Positions 1-14,306 of a DNA stretch of 23,278 nucleotides are shown piece after piece. The DNA lies in IMG/VR virus record IMGVR_UViG_3300030101_000408, positions 1-23,278 of that record. One strand, 5' to 3'. Position 1 is the stretch's first letter; each line of letters starts with the position of its first letter. Under the pieces are notes generated by a model that searched no databases, was not told where the DNA came from, and saw only the letters and a list, made by a program, of their open reading frames with translations. The translations under genes were made by a program, and so were the position numbers. The DNA comes from a virus.

Positions 1-195
1 CCTGATCCGGTGGAGAAGAAGTTCTCTGACGAGGTTATTGAGGAGGTCACATCATTTCCTAATGGTGATCATGATGATTTTTGTGATAGCATGACGTTAG
101 CGTTGATGCGATTTAGGCAAGGTGGGTTTGTATCGTTGAGTGGTGAAGATGACATGAACGATGAATATGCGCCTCGAAGACGGGAGTATTACTGA
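1..195 (+). CDS. terL: Terminase large subunit, C-terminal end (5' partial)
   Basis: The reading frame is open from base 1 and ends at a TGA at 193-195, so the gene starts outside the window. The 64 visible residues contain FPNGDHDDFCDSMTLAL followed by MRFRQGGFV. This matches the end of the RNase H-like nuclease domain of phage large terminases, where a late Asp-rich motif helps bind the catalytic metal. The enzyme cuts concatemeric DNA and drives it into the prohead through the portal, encoded two genes downstream, and this order is the usual one. The acidic tail beyond the nuclease motif (GEDDMNDEYAPRRREYY) is probably disordered. The stop overlaps the start of the next gene (TGATG), suggesting translational coupling. 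The fragment is short, but the motif and the position next to the portal make the call fairly safe. Confidence 0.85.
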   Translation, partial: PDPVEKKFSDEVIEEVTSFPNGDHDDFCDSMTLALMRFRQGGFVSLSGEDDMNDEYAPRRREYY

Positions 196-557
196 TGTCT
201 GAACTGACAAGTGAAAAAGCTCGTAAGCAATTTCCTAATATGCGTTTGACACGCGCAATGGAGCTTACAAGAATTGATGATCTCTCGAAAAAAGATCGTC
301 CTGCGGCAATTAAAAGACTTAATGCGTTGCTTAGTAAAGGTTCACAATCTGGAGGTTTAAACGATGCAGAAACAAAAACAGCCAATCAATTTTACAAAAA
401 GTTGCAAAAAAAATTAAAAGCAGGTTCTACAAAAGGTCGTGGTGGTGGAGCTATGCTTGATTTAGGCAGAATGGCAACTGGTACGGATCTACCTCCAATG
501 AAAAAAATGCGTGACGGTGGTGTTGTTCGCGGTTCTCAATTTAAAGGAACGTTCTGA
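195..557 (+). CDS. Small basic protein between terminase and portal, unknown function
   Basis: This is a 120-residue protein that I cannot assign to a family. It overlaps the terminase stop by one base and its own TGA overlaps the portal ATG, so it belongs to the packaging/portal unit. The N-terminal half looks helical and charged (about residues 1-80, with RTRAMELTR-type amphipathic stretches and KKLQKKLK). The C-terminal part is Gly- and Lys-rich and ends in MKKMRDGGVVRGSQFKGTF. That ending resembles the Gly-Gly peptides found in the basic-protein cluster at 10365-12670. It could be a minor virion protein or a packaging accessory factor. A small terminase is unlikely, because that gene normally precedes the large subunit and no DNA-binding fold is apparent. 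Confidence 0.75.
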   Translation: MSELTSEKARKQFPNMRLTRAMELTRIDDLSKKDRPAAIKRLNALLSKGSQSGGLNDAETKTANQFYKKLQKKLKAGSTKGRGGGAMLDLGRMATGTDLPPMKKMRDGGVVRGSQFKGTF

Positions 558-3001
558 TGGCCTTACCACCACTCGTTGCTCAAGGTTTGAATTTAGACGA
601 CACCATGGGCTTACCGGATGTAGAGATTCCGGTTGATGTTCCGATGTCCTTTGAGGAGGGTGCGGAGGTCATGCAGATGCCTGACGGTGGCGTGATGGTG
701 CAGGAGATGATGGAGATGCAAGCTCCGCCTGTTGACGCTCCATTTGATGCGAACTTGGCTGAGTTCTTGGATCAATCTATTCTAGGCGAGTTATCGAATG
801 AGTTGCGCGGTTTTTATCAGGATGATTTAGATTCACGATCTGAGTGGGAAGAGACTTACACCAAAGGGCTCGATCTACTTGGCTTAAAGACGGACGAGAG
901 AACGACACCTTTTGAGGGGGCATCTGGGATTACGCATCCTATGATTAGCGAGAGTGTCACTCAGTTCCAAGCACAAGCATACAAGGAACTGCTGCCGTCT
1001 GGCGGTCCGGTTAGAACGCAGGTTATTGGTGCTCAGACCCCAGAACGTGAAGCACAGGCTAATCGTGTCAAGCACTTTATGAACTACCAGATTATTGAAG
1101 TCATGGAAGAATATGATCCAGACATGGATCAGATGTTATTTTATCTTCCGTTGAGCGGATCGACATTTAAGAAAGTGTATTTTGATCCTACGAAACAACG
1201 TGCCGTGGCGAAGTTTATACCTGCACAGGATTTGGTGGTTCCGTATTCGGCTAGTGATTTGCAGACGGCAACCCGTGTTACTCATGTATTGCGTATGGAT
1301 GAGAATGAAATACGCAAGATGCAGGTTGCGGGTATGTATCGTGACGTTGAGTTATCTGGTGGTTCTGATCAGGAGGAAGATTCTGTCAGGCAAAAGGTAA
1401 ATGAGTTAGAGGGTATATCGAAGAATTACAGTGACGATGTTCATACTGTTCTGGAGTTTCACATTGATTTGGACATTGAGGGCTTTGAGGATGTTGATCC
1501 GATGGGGGAGCCCACGGGTGTAAAGCTTCCGTACATTGTTACGATTGACGAGGACTCAAGTGAGATACTGTCTATTCGCAGAAACTTTACGCCTGATGAC
1601 GGGTTGAAACGTAAGATACAGTATTTTGTGCACTATAAGTTCATGCCGGGTCTTGGGTTTTACGGATTTGGTTTGATTCACATGATTGGTGGGTTGGGCC
1701 GTGCGGCGACTAGTTTATTACGTCAATTGATCGATGCGGGTACGTTGTCTAACTTGCCAGCTGGATTTAAGGCACGGGGTGTGAGGGTTCGCAATGACGA
1801 TGAGCCTTTGCAACCGGGGGAGTTTAGGGACATTGACGCACCTGGGGGTAGTATTCGTGATGCGATTGTGCCTTTGCCATATAAGGAACCGTCTGCAACA
1901 TTGAACGCTTTGATGGGTGGTTTGGTTAATGACGGGCGTAGGTTTGTGGCTTTGGCAGATCAACAAATGTCAAACATGAACCAAGAGACACCTGTGGGCA
2001 CAACGGTTGCTATGCTTGAGCGCGGCATGAAGGTGATGTCTGCGATTCACAAGCGACTACACTATGCACAGAAGAATGAGTTTAGACTGCTGGCTCGGAT
2101 TTTCAGAGACAACTTGCCGCCGATGTATCCCTATGAGGTTGCTGGTGCTCCGCAGGATGTAAAGGGCACAGATTTTGATGCACGAATTGATGTGCTTCCG
2201 GTTAGTGATCCAAATATTTTTTCGATGTCGCAGCGTATTGCGTTGGCGCAACAACAATTGCAGTTGGCGCAATCGAATCCGGAGATGCACAATTTGCATC
2301 AAGCATATCGGCGTATGTATCAGGCCCTTGAGGTTCAGAACATTGACGAGTTGCTTAACCCACCCCCGCCGCCTCCACAGCCAATGGACCCAGCTATGGA
2401 GAACGGGGTGTTGTTGAGTGGTCAGACTCCGCAGGCTTTTCCCCCGCAGGATCATGACGCTCACATCCAGAGCCATATGGCTTTGCTCTCATTGCCCGTG
2501 TTCCAAGCTAATCCTGCTGCCCTTGGAGGAATTTTGTCCCATGTCCTCCAGCATATTAGTTTGAAAGCACGGGCAATGGTTGAGATGGAATTTGCGGATA
2601 TGCAGCAACAGTTGCAAATGGCGGCACAGATGAATCCAACACCTGAGTTACAGATGCAAGCCCAACAGATGGCACAGCAAATGGAAACTCGTGTGGCCCA
2701 GGTACAGGCACAGATGATTCAGGAGATCATGCCAGCTATGTCTGCCTCTGGTCAGGATGACCCTTCCGCTGATCCATTGGTACAGATTAGAATGCAAGAG
2801 CTTGCGATACGTCAAATGGAAGCGCAGAACAAAGCGCAACTTGACGAAGCAAAGCTTGATCTAGAGAAGTTGAAGGCGCAACAACGTGCCGTTACTGACT
2901 CGGCGCGACTGGAGCTTCAGGAGCAGATTGCTGATGATCGTAATGACGTTAACATCGAGCGTATCAACGTTCAGCGTGAAGCGTCAATGCGGAGACAGTA
3001 G
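557..3001 (+). CDS. Portal protein, P22-like
   Basis: This 814-residue protein has the size and layout of the P22-type portal family, which forms the ring at one capsid vertex through which DNA enters and leaves. An acidic Met-rich leader (1-60) contains MPDGGVMVQ. The portal core begins near residue 97 with a long region including SEWEETYTKGLDLLGL and PFEGASGITHPMISE; next come ANRVKHFMNYQI and SGSTFKKVYFDP, typical of the wing and clip. A proline run near residue 600 (NPPPPPPQPMDP) leads into a long Gln/Met-rich helical tail (about 640-814) with strong coiled-coil character, matching the extended C-terminal barrel of P22 portals. It is longer than P22 gp1 (about 725 residues), mainly at the ends. 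The TGATG junction with the preceding gene fixes the start. Its place directly after the terminase supports the call. Confidence 0.9.
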   Translation: MALPPLVAQGLNLDDTMGLPDVEIPVDVPMSFEEGAEVMQMPDGGVMVQEMMEMQAPPVDAPFDANLAEFLDQSILGELSNELRGFYQDDLDSRSEWEETYTKGLDLLGLKTDERTTPFEGASGITHPMISESVTQFQAQAYKELLPSGGPVRTQVIGAQTPEREAQANRVKHFMNYQIIEVMEEYDPDMDQMLFYLPLSGSTFKKVYFDPTKQRAVAKFIPAQDLVVPYSASDLQTATRVTHVLRMDENEIRKMQVAGMYRDVELSGGSDQEEDSVRQKVNELEGISKNYSDDVHTVLEFHIDLDIEGFEDVDPMGEPTGVKLPYIVTIDEDSSEILSIRRNFTPDDGLKRKIQYFVHYKFMPGLGFYGFGLIHMIGGLGRAATSLLRQLIDAGTLSNLPAGFKARGVRVRNDDEPLQPGEFRDIDAPGGSIRDAIVPLPYKEPSATLNALMGGLVNDGRRFVALADQQMSNMNQETPVGTTVAMLERGMKVMSAIHKRLHYAQKNEFRLLARIFRDNLPPMYPYEVAGAPQDVKGTDFDARIDVLPVSDPNIFSMSQRIALAQQQLQLAQSNPEMHNLHQAYRRMYQALEVQNIDELLNPPPPPPQPMDPAMENGVLLSGQTPQAFPPQDHDAHIQSHMALLSLPVFQANPAALGGILSHVLQHISLKARAMVEMEFADMQQQLQMAAQMNPTPELQMQAQQMAQQMETRVAQVQAQMIQEIMPAMSASGQDDPSADPLVQIRMQELAIRQMEAQNKAQLDEAKLDLEKLKAQQRAVTDSARLELQEQIADDRNDVNIERINVQREASMRRQ

Positions 3002-4335: not shown

Positions 4336-4793
4336 TTACACTTTTAGGGAGTTTGCTGGGTTTTGGTACTTCGTTTTTGCCAGAAGTTTTAAACTATTTT
4401 AAAGCGGGTCAGGAACATAAGCATAAACTTGAGATCATGAGAGTTGAGATGGACATGATGTCCAAACGCTCAGAGTTGAAACTACAACTTCTGGACAAAG
4501 AGGCGGATATTAAGGAAACAGAGGGGCTATATAAACATGATAGCGTGGATGCTGGGGGTTTTATCAATGCACTTCGAGGTAGTGTCCGCCCTATCATTAC
4601 TTATTGTTTTTTTGGTCTTTTCGTTGCCATTAAAGTAACGGCGTTACTTGCGTTAATGGATACAGGACATGATCTTGGTCGTTCGTTAAGTTTAATATGG
4701 GACGATGCTACGGCGGGGTTGTTTGCTGCAATTATGTCTTTTTGGTTTGGTAACAGGGCTGTTAGCAAATATATGAAGCTTAAAAATAAGTGA
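4332..4793 (+). CDS. Putative holin, GTA-like 3-TM family
   Basis: This 153-residue membrane protein has hydrophobic segments at about 4-22, 86-108 and 126-142, and a long charged helix between the first and second (KLEIMRVEMDMMSKRSELKL). The second half, with GGFINALRGSVRPIITYCFF and FAAIMSFWFGNRAVSKY, resembles the 3-TM holins of gene transfer agents and related alphaproteobacterial phages. These proteins open the inner membrane so the endolysin can reach the cell wall. An M15 endopeptidase follows directly, forming a holin-endolysin pair. The start overlaps the preceding stop (ATGA). The family match is from memory of the sequence pattern; the topology is read directly. Confidence 0.75.
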   Translation: MITLLGSLLGFGTSFLPEVLNYFKAGQEHKHKLEIMRVEMDMMSKRSELKLQLLDKEADIKETEGLYKHDSVDAGGFINALRGSVRPIITYCFFGLFVAIKVTALLALMDTGHDLGRSLSLIWDDATAGLFAAIMSFWFGNRAVSKYMKLKNK

Positions 4794-4915
4794 GCCACTA
4801 CAGACGAGCAAACCGACTTGGTACTCAGGGTTGGAGAGATAAAGAGTTAGAGAGCAAAGGCGTAAGAGTTACAATTCCTAAAAGTCCTTGGGAAGAAGAC
4901 AAAGGAGAAAAAACT

Positions 4916-5398
4916 ATGGGTTTTAAACTAGGAAAACGAAGCCTTGAAAGGCTTGAGGGCGTTGATGAACGCATGGTTGCGGTGGTAAAACACGCTATAG
5001 TGGTGACTAAACAGGATTTTTCTGTAATTTGCGGCCTTCGAACTATAGAAGAACAACGCAAACTGGTCGAATCGGGGGCCAGCCAAACTATTGCCAGCAA
5101 GCATATTCCAGGGTTGGCGGTTGACCTTATGGCTTACGATTCGGGTTCAACGCCTGCGGGGCGTTGGGAGCTTAATCTGTATGATGAGATAGCAGATGCC
5201 ATGGCGGAAGGTGCACGAAACGTGGGCGTTGGTGTTTGTTGGGGTGCTGCGTGGTCAACTGAAGAAAATTCTTATCCTATGGACATTCGTTACTGGGAGG
5301 GAATGATGGAAAAGGCAATGAACGCTTACGTGGATAAGAAACGCGCTATGAAAAAACGGGCTTTCATTGACGGGCCACATTTTGAGTTAATTGTTTAA
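4916..5398 (+). CDS. M15-type L-alanyl-D-glutamate endopeptidase (endolysin)
   Basis: From the ATG at 4916 the protein has 160 residues and fits the M15C peptidase fold that cleaves the peptide stems of peptidoglycan. The zinc-ligand signature is SKHIPGLAVDL (His63 and Asp70), and the third ligand is His155 in DGPHFEL. CGLRTIEEQ near residue 39 matches the conserved Arg-containing segment before the first ligand. I chose this start because AAAGGAG lies eight bases upstream, a near-ideal ribosome binding site. The frame is also open back to a GTG at 4790 that overlaps the holin stop; using it would add 42 residues (SHYRRANRLGTQGWRDKEL and onwards) with no signal peptide. Export by the adjacent holin is therefore expected. 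Confidence 0.88.
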   Translation: MGFKLGKRSLERLEGVDERMVAVVKHAIVVTKQDFSVICGLRTIEEQRKLVESGASQTIASKHIPGLAVDLMAYDSGSTPAGRWELNLYDEIADAMAEGARNVGVGVCWGAAWSTEENSYPMDIRYWEGMMEKAMNAYVDKKRAMKKRAFIDGPHFELIV

Positions 5399-5610
5399 TG
5401 GATACTATTGCATTTGCAAAATATATGTATAAAGTCCTCAAGCAACGTCAGGATGAAATATCCGAGGCGCTTGCTCATGATGTCGCAAAAGATTTTCATG
5501 AGTATAAAATGCTCGTTGGAGAGATACGGGGCCTCTCCTTTGCACGAGAGGAAGTAAAAGCCCTGCTGGAGAACGCTGACGAAGATGTCGAAGACACTAT
5601 ATCTTCCTGA
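5398..5610 (+). CDS. Small helical protein, unknown function
   Basis: This 70-residue protein starts MDTIAFAKYMYKVLKQRQDEISE and is almost wholly helical and charged, ending in an acidic tail (ENADEDVEDTISS). Its ATG overlaps the endopeptidase stop (TAATG), and its last 26 bases overlap the start of the co-chaperonin gene. I have seen similar short proteins ahead of capsid genes in marine phages without an assigned role. It could be an assembly cofactor, or a partner of the GroES-like protein with which it is translationally linked. There is no evidence beyond position. Confidence 0.75.
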   Translation: MDTIAFAKYMYKVLKQRQDEISEALAHDVAKDFHEYKMLVGEIRGLSFAREEVKALLENADEDVEDTISS

Positions 5611-6058
5611 TCACGTAGCGCAAAAAATGAATAAAGAGAGACAAGAGCAGTCTTCTTCTATTGATAGCGCGTATGTTGACGCTGAAAACAGGGTGTTGGA
5701 ACCCTCTCTTCTAGACAAAACACTTCTTGACAGGCTACCGCAACCAACAGGCTGGCGGATTTTAGTTATGCCTTACCAAGGGAAACAAAAGACAACTGGT
5801 GGTTTATACGTGCCTGATGAGGTACGAGAACGCGAAAATGTGGCTACTGTTGTTGCATATGTACTCAAAGTAGGTCCGATGGCTTATTCGGATACTAAAA
5901 AGTTTGGGGATACACCTTGGTGCAAGGAGGGCCAGTGGGTTTGCATTGGTCGATATTCAGGATCACGGTTTAAGATTGATGGGGGCGAAGTTCGTATTTT
6001 GAATGATGACGAAGTTATCGCAACCATCCTTGATCCTGATGATATAAAACATGTTTGA
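5585..6058 (+). CDS. GroES-like co-chaperonin (Cpn10 family)
   Basis: This is a 157-residue protein. Residues about 56-150 read as a GroES fold: GWRILVMPYQG (first strand), KTTGGLYVPDEVRE (position and pattern of the mobile loop that docks onto GroEL), VATVVAYVLKVG, then WVCIGRYSGSRFKIDGGEVR and ILNDDEVIATI at the end. Bacterial GroES has about 97 residues, so there is an extra N-terminal region of about 55 residues (LYLPDHVAQKMNKERQ). Phage co-chaperonins such as T4 gp31 replace host GroES so that GroEL can fold the phage capsid protein. The scaffold and major capsid genes directly downstream suit that role. The mobile loop is degenerate, so which GroEL it binds cannot be judged from sequence alone. 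Confidence 0.8.
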   Translation: MSKTLYLPDHVAQKMNKERQEQSSSIDSAYVDAENRVLEPSLLDKTLLDRLPQPTGWRILVMPYQGKQKTTGGLYVPDEVRERENVATVVAYVLKVGPMAYSDTKKFGDTPWCKEGQWVCIGRYSGSRFKIDGGEVRILNDDEVIATILDPDDIKHV

Positions 6059-10628: not shown

Positions 10629-11003
10629 ATGGGTGAGCTTAAAAAATGGTTGAAACAAAAATGGGTGAGGATAGGCTCTGATGGTTCTATTAAGGGCCCG
10701 TGTGGTACTTCGAAAGACAAAAAGAACCCTGACAGATGTTTACCGCAAGCTAAAGCACGTTCTCTTTCTAAGAAAGATCGAGCGGCGACTGCGAAGAAAA
10801 AGAAGAAGGCTGGGGCAAAAGGAAAGACTGTTGTTAAAAATACTAAAAAAGCTACGGTCAGGAATCTCAATGGTGGTGGTAGAACCGCTCCGAAGAGGCC
10901 GTTCAAAGGTAAAAAAGTGGCGGGATCTGCTGTTGCTAAAGGATGCGGAATAGTGATGGAAGGTAAACGTAAAAGAACTAAAGGCGCTGTAAGACAGTTT
11001 TAA
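10629..11003 (+). CDS. Lys-rich small protein (DUF5872-like) with a GCG C-terminal peptide
   Basis: This 124-residue protein begins MGELKKWLKQKWVRIGSDGS, with IKGPCGTSKDKKNPDRCLPQ in the folded part (about 21-40) and a long Lys/Ala tail (SLSKKDRAATAKKKKKAG). The first 60 residues resemble the small domain I know as DUF5872 in marine phages; this is recall, not a search. The last residues, AVAKGCGIVMEGKRKRTKG, resemble a C-terminal pattern (GCG, then V-M, then basic residues and Thr) seen in other marine-phage virion-type proteins, and loosely the tag at 12151-12207. It starts immediately after the upstream stop. Confidence 0.75.
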   Translation: MGELKKWLKQKWVRIGSDGSIKGPCGTSKDKKNPDRCLPQAKARSLSKKDRAATAKKKKKAGAKGKTVVKNTKKATVRNLNGGGRTAPKRPFKGKKVAGSAVAKGCGIVMEGKRKRTKGAVRQF

Positions 11004-11013
11004 GGAGATTAGT

Positions 11014-11208
11014 ATGGCGATGAAAAAGAAGGGCTACCGTATGGGTGGCAAGATGAATAAAATGGGTGGTCGTATGATGAAGAACGGCGGCAAAACTGCC
11101 AAAGGGATGAAGAACGGTGGCAAGCCTGCTTCAAAAAAGAAATCTATGACGGTTGCTCAACTTCGGGCGGCTGCGAAGCAGATGGGGTATAAAGTAACTA
11201 AAGCTTAA
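11014..11208 (+). CDS. Short Met/Gly/Lys-repeat protein with SAP/HeH-like C-terminus
   Basis: This 64-residue protein has a repetitive first half with four Gly-Gly units (MGGKMNKMGGRMMKNGGKTA, then GMKNGGKPASKKK), each preceded by Met or Asn and followed by a basic residue. The second half, MTVAQLRAAAKQMGYKVTKA, resembles the first helix and turn of a SAP/helix-extension-helix motif, which binds DNA in other proteins; this likeness is weak. It has a strong ribosome binding site (AAGGAGAT). A short basic repeat protein of this kind could coat DNA or bind a virion surface. Confidence 0.72.
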   Translation: MAMKKKGYRMGGKMNKMGGRMMKNGGKTAKGMKNGGKPASKKKSMTVAQLRAAAKQMGYKVTKA

Positions 11209-11894
11209 TGCCGTATCTACAAAGTAATGTACCATACTTTAAAGCATGGGTCCGCCGCGAGTACACACATAACCATGAGAAGTATCATGGAGAATTTCTA
11301 CACGCGATGGTAGTCGCTGTAACTACGATGCCAAATCGTAGTCTCAGTTTTCAAGTAATCTTCACAGGATGTGAAGCAGATGGGGAAGAAGAAGACACGG
11401 TGCATGGGGGTGCAATGTGGGCACGTATGCCTATTACTGCTCTCGTTGCAGATATACCATTAGAGGAGTGGCCTGAACCAATGGCAACACATGATGCACA
11501 ACCTTGGGACTGCGCTTCGCATCACCACGCTGTGTATGTGTTGGATCGGGCTACGCCTTGTCCTTGGATGGCAAAGATTGATGGGGAAATGTATCCAGCA
11601 AAGTATTTATTTACTGTGGACTATACGGATTCTGAGATAGCCGATGACCCAGCACAACATAAACAAAGCCATGTTTTGCAGTTATTAGATGCAGGGGAAT
11701 GGACCGGTAATATTGTTGCGTTACCAAATAATCGTGTGCGTGTTACGCACCCTGCTTGGTTTCAGGCGGGGGAGGGTGCGCCTGATTTTAGGCCCTCACA
11801 ACATATACACTATTCAAAATCTGATTTAGACTATACATTGGATGTAAATCGGATATTCGATAATCTCTACCATGAGGATGAGGATGATGGCTAA
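11208..11894 (+). CDS. Conserved 228-aa protein of unknown function
   Basis: This protein opens MPYLQSNVPYFKAWVRREYT and is acidic, with many Trp and His. Distinct segments include THNHEKYHGEFLHAMVVAV (about 20-38), PLEEWPEPMATHDAQPWDC (about 84-102), CASHHHAVYVLDRATPCPWM (about 102-121) and THPAWFQAGEGAPDFRPSQH (about 180-199). The clustered His and Cys could bind a metal, but no known signature is seen. I recognise the opening from other marine phages, always without a function. Its start overlaps the previous stop (TAATG). It is the only large acidic protein within the basic-protein cluster and may be a partner of its basic neighbours. Confidence 0.8.
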   Translation: MPYLQSNVPYFKAWVRREYTHNHEKYHGEFLHAMVVAVTTMPNRSLSFQVIFTGCEADGEEEDTVHGGAMWARMPITALVADIPLEEWPEPMATHDAQPWDCASHHHAVYVLDRATPCPWMAKIDGEMYPAKYLFTVDYTDSEIADDPAQHKQSHVLQLLDAGEWTGNIVALPNNRVRVTHPAWFQAGEGAPDFRPSQHIHYSKSDLDYTLDVNRIFDNLYHEDEDDG

Positions 11895-12207
11895 AACTAC
11901 AGAATCGGAAATGCAAAAACTTAGAGAAGAGTTTTTTGATGGCCCTGCATCGGATACGATGAGTTTTGATGAGTTTTTGTTGCGAAAAGGAGTTAACCCC
12001 AAAAAGGCAAAGTTTAACGTTGGAGGGTCGATTAGTAAATCTGAAGAGCCTGGGTTAACAGCTTTAGCAAAAGAGGCCCCTGAAGTGGTTCGGAAAATGG
12101 GGAAAAACCCTCAAAGAATCACAAAAAAAGACGGTGGTAAGATTAAAGGGTTTAAAAACGGCGGTTGTGTTATAAAGAAAACAAATCAAAAAGTGTTTAT
12201 GGGTTGA
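11887..12207 (+). CDS. Small protein with the FKNGGC C-terminal tag (copy 1)
   Basis: From the ATG at 11887 this is a 106-residue protein (ATGs at 11872, 11878 and 11884 would add up to five residues). It has an acidic helical start (TESEMQKLREEFFDG) and a middle with LRKGVNPKKAKFNVGGSIS. A Lys/Gly-rich end contains KKDGGKIKG and finishes FKNGGCVIKKTNQKVFMG. The last 18 residues match the end of the next gene at all but one position (Ile/Met), although the two protein bodies are unrelated. The sharing points to a functional C-terminal tag, for example for virion incorporation. The start overlaps the previous gene by eight bases. Confidence 0.78.
   Translation: MAKTTESEMQKLREEFFDGPASDTMSFDEFLLRKGVNPKKAKFNVGGSISKSEEPGLTALAKEAPEVVRKMGKNPQRITKKDGGKIKGFKNGGCVIKKTNQKVFMG
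12151..12207 (+). repeat. Direct repeat, copy 1 (codes the shared C-terminal tag)
   Basis: These 57 bases match 12614-12670 at 54 positions. The three differences all fall at third codon positions, two silent and one Ile to Met. The final 33 bases, including the TGA stop, are identical. Both copies lie at the very end of their gene. Confidence 0.9.
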
Positions 12208-12223
12208 TTAAGGAGATTAAGTT

Positions 12224-12670
12224 ATGGCAAGGCTTGGAACAGACGGGCTTACAGATCCTACAGTTGTACCCCCGAATGACCCCTCTTTAACGCGTCCTAG
12301 AGCAAGACCAAAGGATGCTGCTCGTGTAGGCAACGGAACGGTTGATAAAAGTGTGCGTCCTAGAGCAAGACCGGAGGATAAGAGCATCTTCGGTATGAAA
12401 CCCACCTTAAAAAGAGATAGCTCTAATACCGAAAACAAAAGGGGATTTACACCTGGTGAACAGGCACCGTCACAATCGGAACAAAACAAAAGAGGTTTTA
12501 CTCCTAAGACAGATAAAAAACCAAAGTCTAAGAAAAAAGATCCCGGTGGAGGTGATTTCAGACCTCCAGAGATTTTAGGTAGACCTTCAAAACCTAAAAT
12601 TGATATCATTAAATTTAAAAACGGTGGTTGTGTCATGAAGAAAACAAATCAAAAAGTGTTTATGGGTTGA
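12224..12670 (+). CDS. Pro/Arg-rich repeat protein with the FKNGGC C-terminal tag (copy 2)
   Basis: This 148-residue protein looks largely disordered. It contains two RPRARP repeats (RPRARPKDAAR at about 24-34, RPRARPEDKS at about 45-54), two NKRGFTP repeats (about 71-78 and 87-94), a Lys-rich stretch and PGGGDFRPPEILGRP. It ends FKNGGCVMKKTNQKVFMG, the same tag as the previous gene. It has a good ribosome binding site (AAGGAGAT). A disordered basic linker leading to a shared tag suits a protein tethered to, or carried in, the virion. No family is recognised. Confidence 0.78.
   Translation: MARLGTDGLTDPTVVPPNDPSLTRPRARPKDAARVGNGTVDKSVRPRARPEDKSIFGMKPTLKRDSSNTENKRGFTPGEQAPSQSEQNKRGFTPKTDKKPKSKKKDPGGGDFRPPEILGRPSKPKIDIIKFKNGGCVMKKTNQKVFMG
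12614..12670 (+). repeat. Direct repeat, copy 2 (codes the shared C-terminal tag)
   Basis: This is the second copy of the 57-base repeat at 12151-12207, ending in the TGA of the gene. The copies begin 463 bases apart and sit on otherwise unrelated genes. Only three third-position differences separate them, which suggests either recent copying of the end module or strong selection on the peptide. Confidence 0.9.
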
Positions 12671-12673
12671 TAG

Positions 12674-13339
12674 ATGACTACTTCAGGTTCAAGAGATTTT
12701 AATATTGATGTCGGAGAGATCATCGAGGAGGCATATGAAAGGTGTGGCTTAGAGGTTCGCACTGGTTACGATGCACGTACAGCGCGAAGATCTTTGAACT
12801 TGATGTTTGCTGATTGGGCCAATCGAGGTGTTAACCTTTGGACAGTCAAGCAGGGCACCGCAACTCTTACACAAGGCACTGCAACGGTTACTTTGACAGC
12901 GGATGTAGTTGATGTGTTGGAGATTGTGCTTCGCAGGGGCTCCACAGACTTTGAGATTCAACGCATTAGCCGTGGTGAATATGCAACACTGCCAGACAAA
13001 ACTACGCAGGGCAGGCCCAGCCAGTTTTGGTTTAATAAGCAGATTAGCCCTATTATTAATCTTTGGGCTGTGCCAGAAAACTCTACTGATCAAATTGTGT
13101 ATTACTATGTGCAAAGGATTGAGGATGCAGATGCACTCGTCAATACTACAGATATGCCTTTTCGCTTTTATCCTTGCATGGTGGCAGGCTTGGCTTATTA
13201 CCTTGCAATGAAACGTGCGCCTCAACTTATCCAGGTCTTAAAGAGTGTGTACGAAGAGGAGTTTCAACGGGCGGCTGATGAGGACGAAGATCGTGTACCT
13301 TTAAAGTTACAGCCTAGCATTCAATACTTGAGGGTCTAA
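12674..13339 (+). CDS. Head-tail connector/adaptor, P22 gp4-like
   Basis: This 221-residue protein has a helical opening (DVGEIIEEAYERCGLEVRTG) and the element ARTARRSLNLMFADWANRGVNLW, typical of the gp4-like connector family that binds under the portal. It continues with a beta-rich centre (TATLTQGTATVTLTADVVDV) and YYYVQRIEDADALVNTTDMP before a helical end (MVAGLAYYLAMKRAPQ). In P22, gp4 extends the portal channel and holds the tail hub. The P22-like portal upstream and a second adaptor downstream make this role likely. The assignment is from the pattern; a structural comparison could place it elsewhere in the neck. Confidence 0.78.
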   Translation: MTTSGSRDFNIDVGEIIEEAYERCGLEVRTGYDARTARRSLNLMFADWANRGVNLWTVKQGTATLTQGTATVTLTADVVDVLEIVLRRGSTDFEIQRISRGEYATLPDKTTQGRPSQFWFNKQISPIINLWAVPENSTDQIVYYYVQRIEDADALVNTTDMPFRFYPCMVAGLAYYLAMKRAPQLIQVLKSVYEEEFQRAADEDEDRVPLKLQPSIQYLRV

Positions 13340-13662
13340 TGGCCTACGCTTCGGGCAAAAACGCATTTGGTATATCAGACAGATCGGGTCGGCGTTACCG
13401 CCTTCGTGAGATGAAGACAGAATGGACAGGTGCAAAGGTTGGTCCTGATGAGTTTGATCCGAAACATCCTCAACTGTTTCCTCCGAAAGCATACCCAGAT
13501 CCTCAAGCTTTGCGTGATCCAAGACCAGAGCAGGATCTTACAGAGCAAAGATCTATACAGTATGGCTTTGATCCTGTTGGCTTTCGTGACATAGAAGGAA
13601 TAACGCCACCAAATAACTTAACAGCTACAGGTAGCGTTGGAACGGTAACGGTGACAACATGA
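13339..13662 (+). CDS. Conserved small protein between connector genes, unknown function
   Basis: This 107-residue protein opens MAYASGKNAFGISDRSGRRY, then LREMKTEWTGAKVGPDEFDP and HPQLFPPKAYPDPQALRDPR (about residues 22-67), ending in a Thr/Val-rich tail. The SDRSG and VGPDEF(D/E)-HPQL pattern recurs in marine phages in the same place but has no known role. TAATG and ATGA overlaps link it tightly to both connector genes, so it is probably part of the neck or needed for its assembly. Confidence 0.8.
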   Translation: MAYASGKNAFGISDRSGRRYRLREMKTEWTGAKVGPDEFDPKHPQLFPPKAYPDPQALRDPRPEQDLTEQRSIQYGFDPVGFRDIEGITPPNNLTATGSVGTVTVTT

Positions 13663-14306
13663 GTTTTACATACGATGAGTTAAAAACCGCTATACAAGAT
13701 TATACGGAGAATGTGGAAACAACTTTTGTAAATAATCTTCCTATTTTCATTCGTACCGCAGAAGAACGTATTCTTAAAACAGTGCAGCTTGATCTGTTTC
13801 GTAAAAATGCATCTGGTCAAATGGCAAGTGGAAACCAGTTTTTACAACAGCCTACTGATTTTTTAGCTCCGTTTTCTTTGAGTTACACGAGTAGTAGTGA
13901 AAAAGAGTTTGTTGAGTTTAAAGACGTAAGTTTTATACAAACATACAACCCAAATTCATCAACAACGGGTTTACCAAAGTATTATGCTACTTTTGATAAC
14001 TCAAATTTTATACTTGGTCCCACGCCCAACGCATCTTTTCAGATTGAAATTCATTATTTTTATCGACCAGCCAGTTTGACAGCTGGGTCTGGTAGCGGCA
14101 CTACCTGGTTGAGTCAAAATGCAGAGTTAACGTTGTTATATGGTGCATTAATAGAGGCATATGTATTTATGAAAGGCGAGCAAGACATAATGGCAATGTA
14201 TGATAAAAGATATCAAGAGAGTTTGGCTGGATTGAAAATGCTTGGAGAAGCTAAAGAAACAACACAAGAATATCGTGTTGGCAAAGTTATAAGGCCGAAA
14301 CAATAA
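13659..14306 (+). CDS. Tail adaptor / tail tubular-like connector protein
   Basis: This 215-residue protein starts MSFTYDELKTAIQDYTENVE with FVNNLPIFIRTAEERILKTV (about 23-42). Its beta-rich centre contains PKYYATFDNSNFILGPTPNA (about 107-126) and FQIEIHYFYRPASLTAG (about 127-143). It ends in a helical segment with LTLLYGALIEAYVFMKGEQD. This combination is familiar as the adaptor that follows the gp4-like connector in marine podovirus-like genomes, comparable to tail tubular protein A or the SU10-type adaptor. It would join the head to the short tail and fibres. The coupling by ATGA and TAATG overlaps fits. Confidence 0.75.
   Translation: MSFTYDELKTAIQDYTENVETTFVNNLPIFIRTAEERILKTVQLDLFRKNASGQMASGNQFLQQPTDFLAPFSLSYTSSSEKEFVEFKDVSFIQTYNPNSSTTGLPKYYATFDNSNFILGPTPNASFQIEIHYFYRPASLTAGSGSGTTWLSQNAELTLLYGALIEAYVFMKGEQDIMAMYDKRYQESLAGLKMLGEAKETTQEYRVGKVIRPKQ

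Follow-up and report, generated by a model that had tools for sequence, protein, structure and literature searches.

A portable C-terminal tag family on small proteins of marine tailed phages and its possible role in the virion

Why should two neighbouring proteins with nothing obvious in common end in almost the same 18 residues? The question is raised by a linear IMG/VR fragment of 23.3 kb (IMGVR_UViG_3300030101_000408), analysed over its whole length and referred to here as the window. It comes from a marine, pelagiphage-like virus, and its portal protein is 52% identical to that of Pelagibacter phage HTVC027P. The answer we propose is built up from the repeat itself, from the family to which its peptide belongs and from the level at which that family is conserved.

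Two adjacent genes with one tail

Both genes lie on the plus strand, as do the other elements of this locus. Gene 1 (11887-12207) encodes 106 residues made up of an N-terminal module, a body with the conserved stretch ISKSEEPGLTALAKEAPEVVRKMG and the C-terminal tag FKNGGCVIKKTNQKVFMG (12151-12204, within a DNA repeat at 12151-12208). In the spacer 3' of this first copy stands the Shine-Dalgarno sequence AAGGAG of gene 2 (12210-12215). Gene 2 itself (12224-12670) encodes 148 residues: a Pro/Arg/Lys-rich orphan body with RPRARP and KRGFTP repeats, followed by the tag FKNGGCVMKKTNQKVFMG (12614-12667, repeat 12614-12671). It is followed by a gene for a portal-adaptor of the SU10 type (12674-13339; Pfam PF24175, E 1.7e-12), which served us as synteny anchor and whose relatives in annotated phages are labelled ‘tail adaptor’ or ‘adaptor protein’. 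A second SU10-type adaptor gene is found at 13659-14306 (7e-22), separated from the first by a gene for 107 residues.

The two proteins terminate in FKNGGCVxKKTNQKVFMG, and the earlier note's description of a near-identical tag with three differences, all at third codon positions, holds in every detail: the repeats are identical at 55 of 58 nucleotides (54 of 57 on the 57-nucleotide comparison), and the differences are C12162/T12625, T12171/C12634 and A12174/G12637, two of them silent and the third an exchange of Ile for Met (ATA/ATG), leaving 17 of the 18 residues identical. Homology ends one nucleotide past the stop codons, and the flanks on both sides are unlike. That the bodies share nothing obvious was likewise borne out. 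Full-length homology, which the earlier note regarded as fatal to its reading, was checked for, and the best local match is a low-complexity stretch of 28 residues (36% identity, E 0.009 without composition correction), so the two bodies are not homologous along their length. The likeness of the tails is far beyond chance: over 48 nucleotides the pair agrees at 45, as against a mean of 38 for the KTNQ tails of other phages among themselves and just 36 for the nearest outside tail compared with either copy.

The body of gene 1 is orthologous to adaptor-adjacent, KTNQ-tagged genes of five other contigs (L105, L179, L213, L226 and L231; phmmer 1e-11 to 5e-15), and its residues 8-35 resemble a GGGAA-tagged protein in contig L454 (57% over 28 residues), where the tag differs. 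For the body of gene 2, a protein search of viral contigs, phage records and PDB sequences returned no relative; a short SVRPRARP motif is common to it and to tagged proteins of contigs L286, L290 and L296. Neither gene has a PHROGs match up to E 0.1 or a Pfam match up to E 1. A KTNQ-tagged gene stands directly upstream of the adaptor gene in 66 of 67 cases, the sole exception being gene 1 of the window, which is kept apart from the adaptor gene because gene 2 sits between them.

Judged by these comparisons, gene 1 is the tagged gene normally found beside the adaptor gene. The simplest history makes gene 2 an extra gene that was recently inserted and brought a copied tail with it; the inserted unit (12209-12671) runs from gene 1 to the adaptor gene and comprises gene 2 with its own ribosome-binding site and tail. 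Since a second gene with the same tail separates a KTNQ gene from the adaptor gene only in the window, a recent duplication of the 3' end is indicated, and the earlier suggestion of a mobile 3' module copied by recombination gains support for the second copy.

Such a history invites the objection that the shared tail is a recombination scar without current function, a 58-bp homology or duplication left by the insertion of gene 2. The window pair is indeed unusually alike (in four other contigs the two tails of a tandem tagged pair differ in kind and are identical at 33-43 of 57 nucleotides, as against 54 of 57 here), and gene 2 lies exactly between both repeats. Against this, selection on the peptide, as described below, keeps the same class of tail across hundreds of contigs, and therefore the copied segment was already functional; that gene 2 makes use of its own copy is not proven. 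We regard the scar as quite improbable. An assembly artefact, in which the versions of the locus from two strains were joined at the repeat, is the least probable of all the readings considered here: the window is a single metagenomic contig and gene 2 occurs on no other, but both reading frames are complete, ribosome-binding sites and gene spacing are in order, and both copies bear the derived ending KTNQKVFMG, which was found nowhere else.

A family of strictly C-terminal tags

The earlier note had proposed a search for the peptide at the C-termini of unrelated proteins, and the outcome was divided. The exact 18-mer, like the shortened pattern CV[IM]KKTNQ, had no match in viral contigs and is unique to this contig; a tblastn search with a composite tag peptide also returned no matches, as is expected of so short a query. 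The class to which the peptide belongs, on the other hand, is found on many unrelated proteins. Scanning viral contigs by pattern gave 103 stretches of the KTNQ type and more than 120 of the GGCVMAGRG type, while RGGGAAxRGxxF[KR]Gxx, a broader pattern seen in neighbouring genes, occurs in more than 120 contigs. The position of these motifs is strict. Among distinct IMG/VR open reading frames, the spacing between KTNQxPHMS or GGCVMAGRG and the stop codon is constant in 181 of 181, and all 76 with the RGGGAA pattern end exactly two residues past F[KR]G. The pattern GG..VR[VI][FY] was found 60 times at C-termini and never internally among 10,669 reading frames.

As a cellular control, 257 Gb of bacterial and archaeal genomes were searched with the GGCVMAGRG pattern and gave five scattered matches, four of which could be read in frame and lay 39-155 residues before a stop codon; the fifth, in L382, did not come up in the in-frame check. 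A cellular origin or mimicry of the tag was rejected on these grounds, the matches being few and scattered and the four in frame not C-terminal. The 18-mer is thus one allele of a widespread, portable and strictly C-terminal tag family of about 15-17 residues, which combines Gly-Gly with a terminus of basic or aromatic character and is found in marine tailed phages, among them those resembling HTVC023P and HTVC027P. The letters of the tag were not found in the relevant open-access literature (subscription papers lay outside the search), and the family is apparently undescribed.

The tags keep particular company in the genome, mostly that of the genes for the head-tail rings. Through the adaptor gene, and regardless of tags, 76 adaptor loci were fetched, in which the small gene just 5' mostly ends in KTNQ(K/N)PHMS, GGCVMAGRGVRxTxM or GGCVMAGRGGxFKGx; a tag was recognised in 58 of them (57 by an automatic rule, to which we added L098 with VRTNQKPHMS), and about a quarter are without a recognised one. 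Not every tagged gene is close to a ring gene, as L272 and L281 show. In the window a further tagged gene adjoins the portal gene: a small gene between terminase and portal (195-557, plus strand, 120 residues) ends in the related tag DGGVVRGSQFKGTF (513-554) and runs into the portal protein gene (557-3001, plus strand; phrog_1216, E 5e-48). Most of the nearest portal relatives have terminase and portal genes side by side, and an extra gene there, if any, ends in FKGTF; extra pre-portal genes ending like DGGVVRGSQFKGTF, which bring two more unrelated bodies, occur in L006, L031 and L067, where they form one family, and in L017, where the gene is unrelated.

Other genes of the window deserve mention in their own right. 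A GG-repeat protein (11014-11208) ends in SMTVAQLRAAAKQMGYKVTKA, where related proteins in this position have FKGxF or VRIF tags, a possible case of tag loss or replacement. Its neighbour at 10629-11003 ends in GCGIVMEGKRKRTKGAVRQF, a third kind of conserved C-terminus that is also seen in neighbours such as L094-L097 (KGCGAIMADRRKTTKGAVRQF). The structural gene block further contains a GroES-like co-chaperonin (5585-6058; PF00166, E 1e-10) and an M15-like peptidase that stays below Pfam's cut-off (4790-5398).

Tagged proteins have at least 31 unrelated bodies. Conservative single linkage gives at least 32 body clusters, a lower bound since it lumped the GG-repeat proteins into a single cluster of 174. 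One body may be joined to several kinds of tail, and one kind of tail to several bodies: EF-hand-like bodies (DLTGDGKVTQAD) bear KTNQ tails in 15 cases, AGRG-T in 10 and AGRG-KG in 17, and KTNQ tails are found on five body types. On a tree of 159 adaptor sequences at least 24 changes of tail and at least 35 changes of body are required, rough counts since the tree was made with FastTree and has many unsupported forks. A small protein of the family phrog_16028 (‘NIxxKRxRI..GSGERMRxPGxKGAPT’) has a body that bears AGRG tags in these phages and stands without a tag in phages L075, L121, L151 and L320, and therefore the tag is an add-on. Tags and bodies recombine. Many of the tagged bodies start with a single motif resembling an EF-hand calcium loop (DLTGDGKVTQAD, LDKNKDGKISGED), as in L103, L184, L229, L268 and many others upstream of the adaptor gene, and also in HTVC023P (L378, 28696-29061).

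A conserved peptide and a start signal in one

What is it that selection preserves in these tails, the peptide or the nucleic acid? In the cores of the tags the residues are fixed and synonymous codons vary. The Lys of KTNQ is encoded by AAG 34 times and by AAA 33 times, and the fixed Arg of RGGGAAxRG uses all six Arg codons; selection therefore acts on the peptide. The 3' ends behave otherwise. Of the genes with AGRG-KG tags, 38 of 38 have a stop codon overlapped by the next ATG and a Shine-Dalgarno sequence within the tag, in nearly every case AAGG in the Lys-Gly codons; the same arrangement is seen in 41 of 46 FKGxF tags, and the codons of DGGVVRGSQFKGTF contain the Shine-Dalgarno sequence AAAGGA of the portal gene. 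With KTNQ and AGRG-T tags the ATG mostly follows 3-4 nucleotides past the stop codon. The last five KTNQ codons (AAA CCA CAT ATG AGT) are almost fixed at silent sites in the KTNQ-tagged genes of L163-L259, in spite of variable tag codons further upstream and with no strong Shine-Dalgarno sequence; the start region of the adaptor gene is probably part of the explanation.

The 3' end of many tags consequently does two jobs, as peptide and as ribosome-binding site of the next gene, and part of the terminal conservation arises because the last codons encode that site. The subtype of the tail also follows the gene junction in tandem pairs: where two tagged genes precede the adaptor gene (L309, L335, L337 and L368), the AGRG-KG tail comes first, its stop codon overlapped by the next ATG, and the AGRG-T tail second, with the adaptor ATG 3-4 nucleotides past its stop.

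One could go further and suppose that conservation of the tail is mainly a matter of nucleic acid, for the start signals of the next gene, so that inserted bodies would retain the 3' end already in place without any role for the peptide itself. The Shine-Dalgarno sequences inside the AGRG-KG and FKGxF tags and the near-invariant silent sites of the last KTNQ codons speak for this idea, but the conserved core lies 27-48 nucleotides upstream and varies freely at silent sites. Tags persist, moreover, where the Shine-Dalgarno sequence lies in the spacer (35 of 59 VRVF tags, and also L324) and where the next gene starts 36-59 nucleotides away. The first copy in the window is a case of this kind, being followed by a separate AAGGAG, which makes it dispensable as a ribosome-binding site. 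We consider a mainly nucleic-acid role rather unlikely; as the sole explanation it is rejected for the core and accepted for the last two to five codons only.

The earlier note had named the cysteine between the Gly-Gly pair and the basic run as a possible binding or processing site. The residue counts decide against a Cys-based function. Where the scan pattern left the position free, Cys occupies it in 18 of 67 KTNQ tails and Ala in 44 of 67. A broader form of the proposal, that the Gly-Gly-Cys stretch is a site of processing or attachment by double-glycine cleavage, lipidation or a disulphide, can point to a nearly invariant GG and to the frequency of Cys in AGRG tags, though there the scan pattern demanded Cys. 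Its difficulty is that 49 of 67 KTNQ tails have Ala or another residue in place of Cys. Known double-glycine signals are N-terminal leaders; the GG of the tag is C-terminal, 15-16 residues from the stop codon, a position that does not correspond to a double-glycine (C39) leader. Such a site is very improbable. Of the sorting, cleavage or docking signal that the earlier note had imagined, docking or sorting is the most reasonable part, given that the peptide class is found at the C-termini of so many unrelated phage proteins, and processing at Gly-Gly-Cys is disfavoured.

A possible anchor in the virus particle

The tagged proteins are small and basic and appear to be largely disordered. Net body charge is positive in 142 of 142, with a mean of +0.15 per residue as against +0.06 in 61 control genes; gene 1 has +0.075 and gene 2 +0.108. 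An AlphaFold2 model of gene 1, built from 13 sequences, has a mean pLDDT of 64 and of about 47-59 in the tag region. According to this model the tag does not fold by itself, and the model says no more about it. For residues 1-40 of gene 1 helices are predicted (pLDDT 74-87), and disorder is therefore not a property of every body.

By analogy, the tag probably anchors these small basic proteins in the virus particle. The analogy is with gp7.3 of phage T7, a tail scaffold or ejected protein of 99 residues of which, in the mature phage, only the C-terminal loop (84-98) is ordered; the loop is anchored to two nozzle subunits at the junction of adaptor and nozzle, and density around the DNA end has been attributed to the positively charged remainder (PMC11784390). 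Like the tagged proteins, the Lys/Gly-rich gp7.3 combines a small, basic body (+0.084 per residue by our count) with a short, conserved C-terminus. Its ordered anchor measures about 15 residues, and its gene lies close upstream of that of a head-tail ring protein, which in T7 is the portal. Unlike the C-terminus of gp7.3, the tags are common to many bodies, with several genes per genome, and KTNQ genes adjoin the adaptor gene. Homology to gp7.3 or gp6.7 of T7 was looked for and not detected: comparison with their C-termini (that of gp7.3 being ARSSGGGINI) gave no BLAST match with four consensus tags and -1.3 bits with a tag HMM. The likeness is one of analogy.

On this model a conserved C-terminal anchor would be joined to a replaceable basic body. 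The tag would dock a flexible, DNA-binding body onto a ring of the virion (adaptor, nozzle or portal), and the acquisition of the tail would turn a new body into a virion protein. The joint explanation, namely a portable C-terminal tag family, a gene 2 inserted with a copied tail and a tag that serves as virion-ring anchor, is the one we tentatively adopt, at somewhat less than an even chance. Against it speak the negative comparison with T7, the tagged genes that are not near ring genes, the adaptor loci in which no tag was recognised, the share of terminal conservation owed to the ribosome-binding site and the predicted helices of gene 1.

Its main rival holds that the tag is a loading peptide for the capsid interior, by which small basic proteins are packed with the DNA into the HK97-fold head. 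There is a precedent in encapsulins, shells of the same fold, which load cargo via short C-terminal peptides on otherwise unrelated proteins (PMC8346489). In sharing a C-terminal peptide among unrelated proteins the two systems are alike; the bodies are suitably small and basic, and their genes lie within the head-tail gene block. The peptides differ in sequence, however, since the tags, judged by eye, bear no likeness to the encapsulin consensus SDGSLGIGSLKRS, and it is with the portal and adaptor genes, not with the capsid gene, that the tagged genes are associated. Capsid loading seems to us unlikely.

A cultured phage makes the anchor model testable. Protein gp51 of Pelagibacter phage HTVC023P (QGZ17680.1) ends in RGGGAAVRGMGFKGVF and belongs to the wider tag class, its tag being of the RGGGAA and not the KTNQ type; the protein is unstudied, and its N-terminal module also occurs without a tag, for example in HTVC027P.

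The model may be extended: marine phages would have a small set of exchangeable C-terminal ‘address tags’, which direct many rapidly evolving accessory proteins each to a particular ring of the virion, and a new gene would come to encode a virion or ejected protein simply through capture of a tagged 3' end. This extension is possible, if doubtful. Were it true, FKGTF-type tags would belong next to the portal and KTNQ- or AGRG-type tags next to the adaptor, a captured 3' end would bring with it the ribosome-binding site of the next gene, and gene 2 would be a capture event caught early.

Most small genes of the abundant ocean phages are without an assigned function, and the tag offers a handle on all those that carry it. 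It predicts which orphan proteins have a common binding partner, probably in the virion, and the short peptide could be used for pull-downs. A tail that combines a docking signal with the start signal of the next gene may represent a route by which phages recruit new genes.
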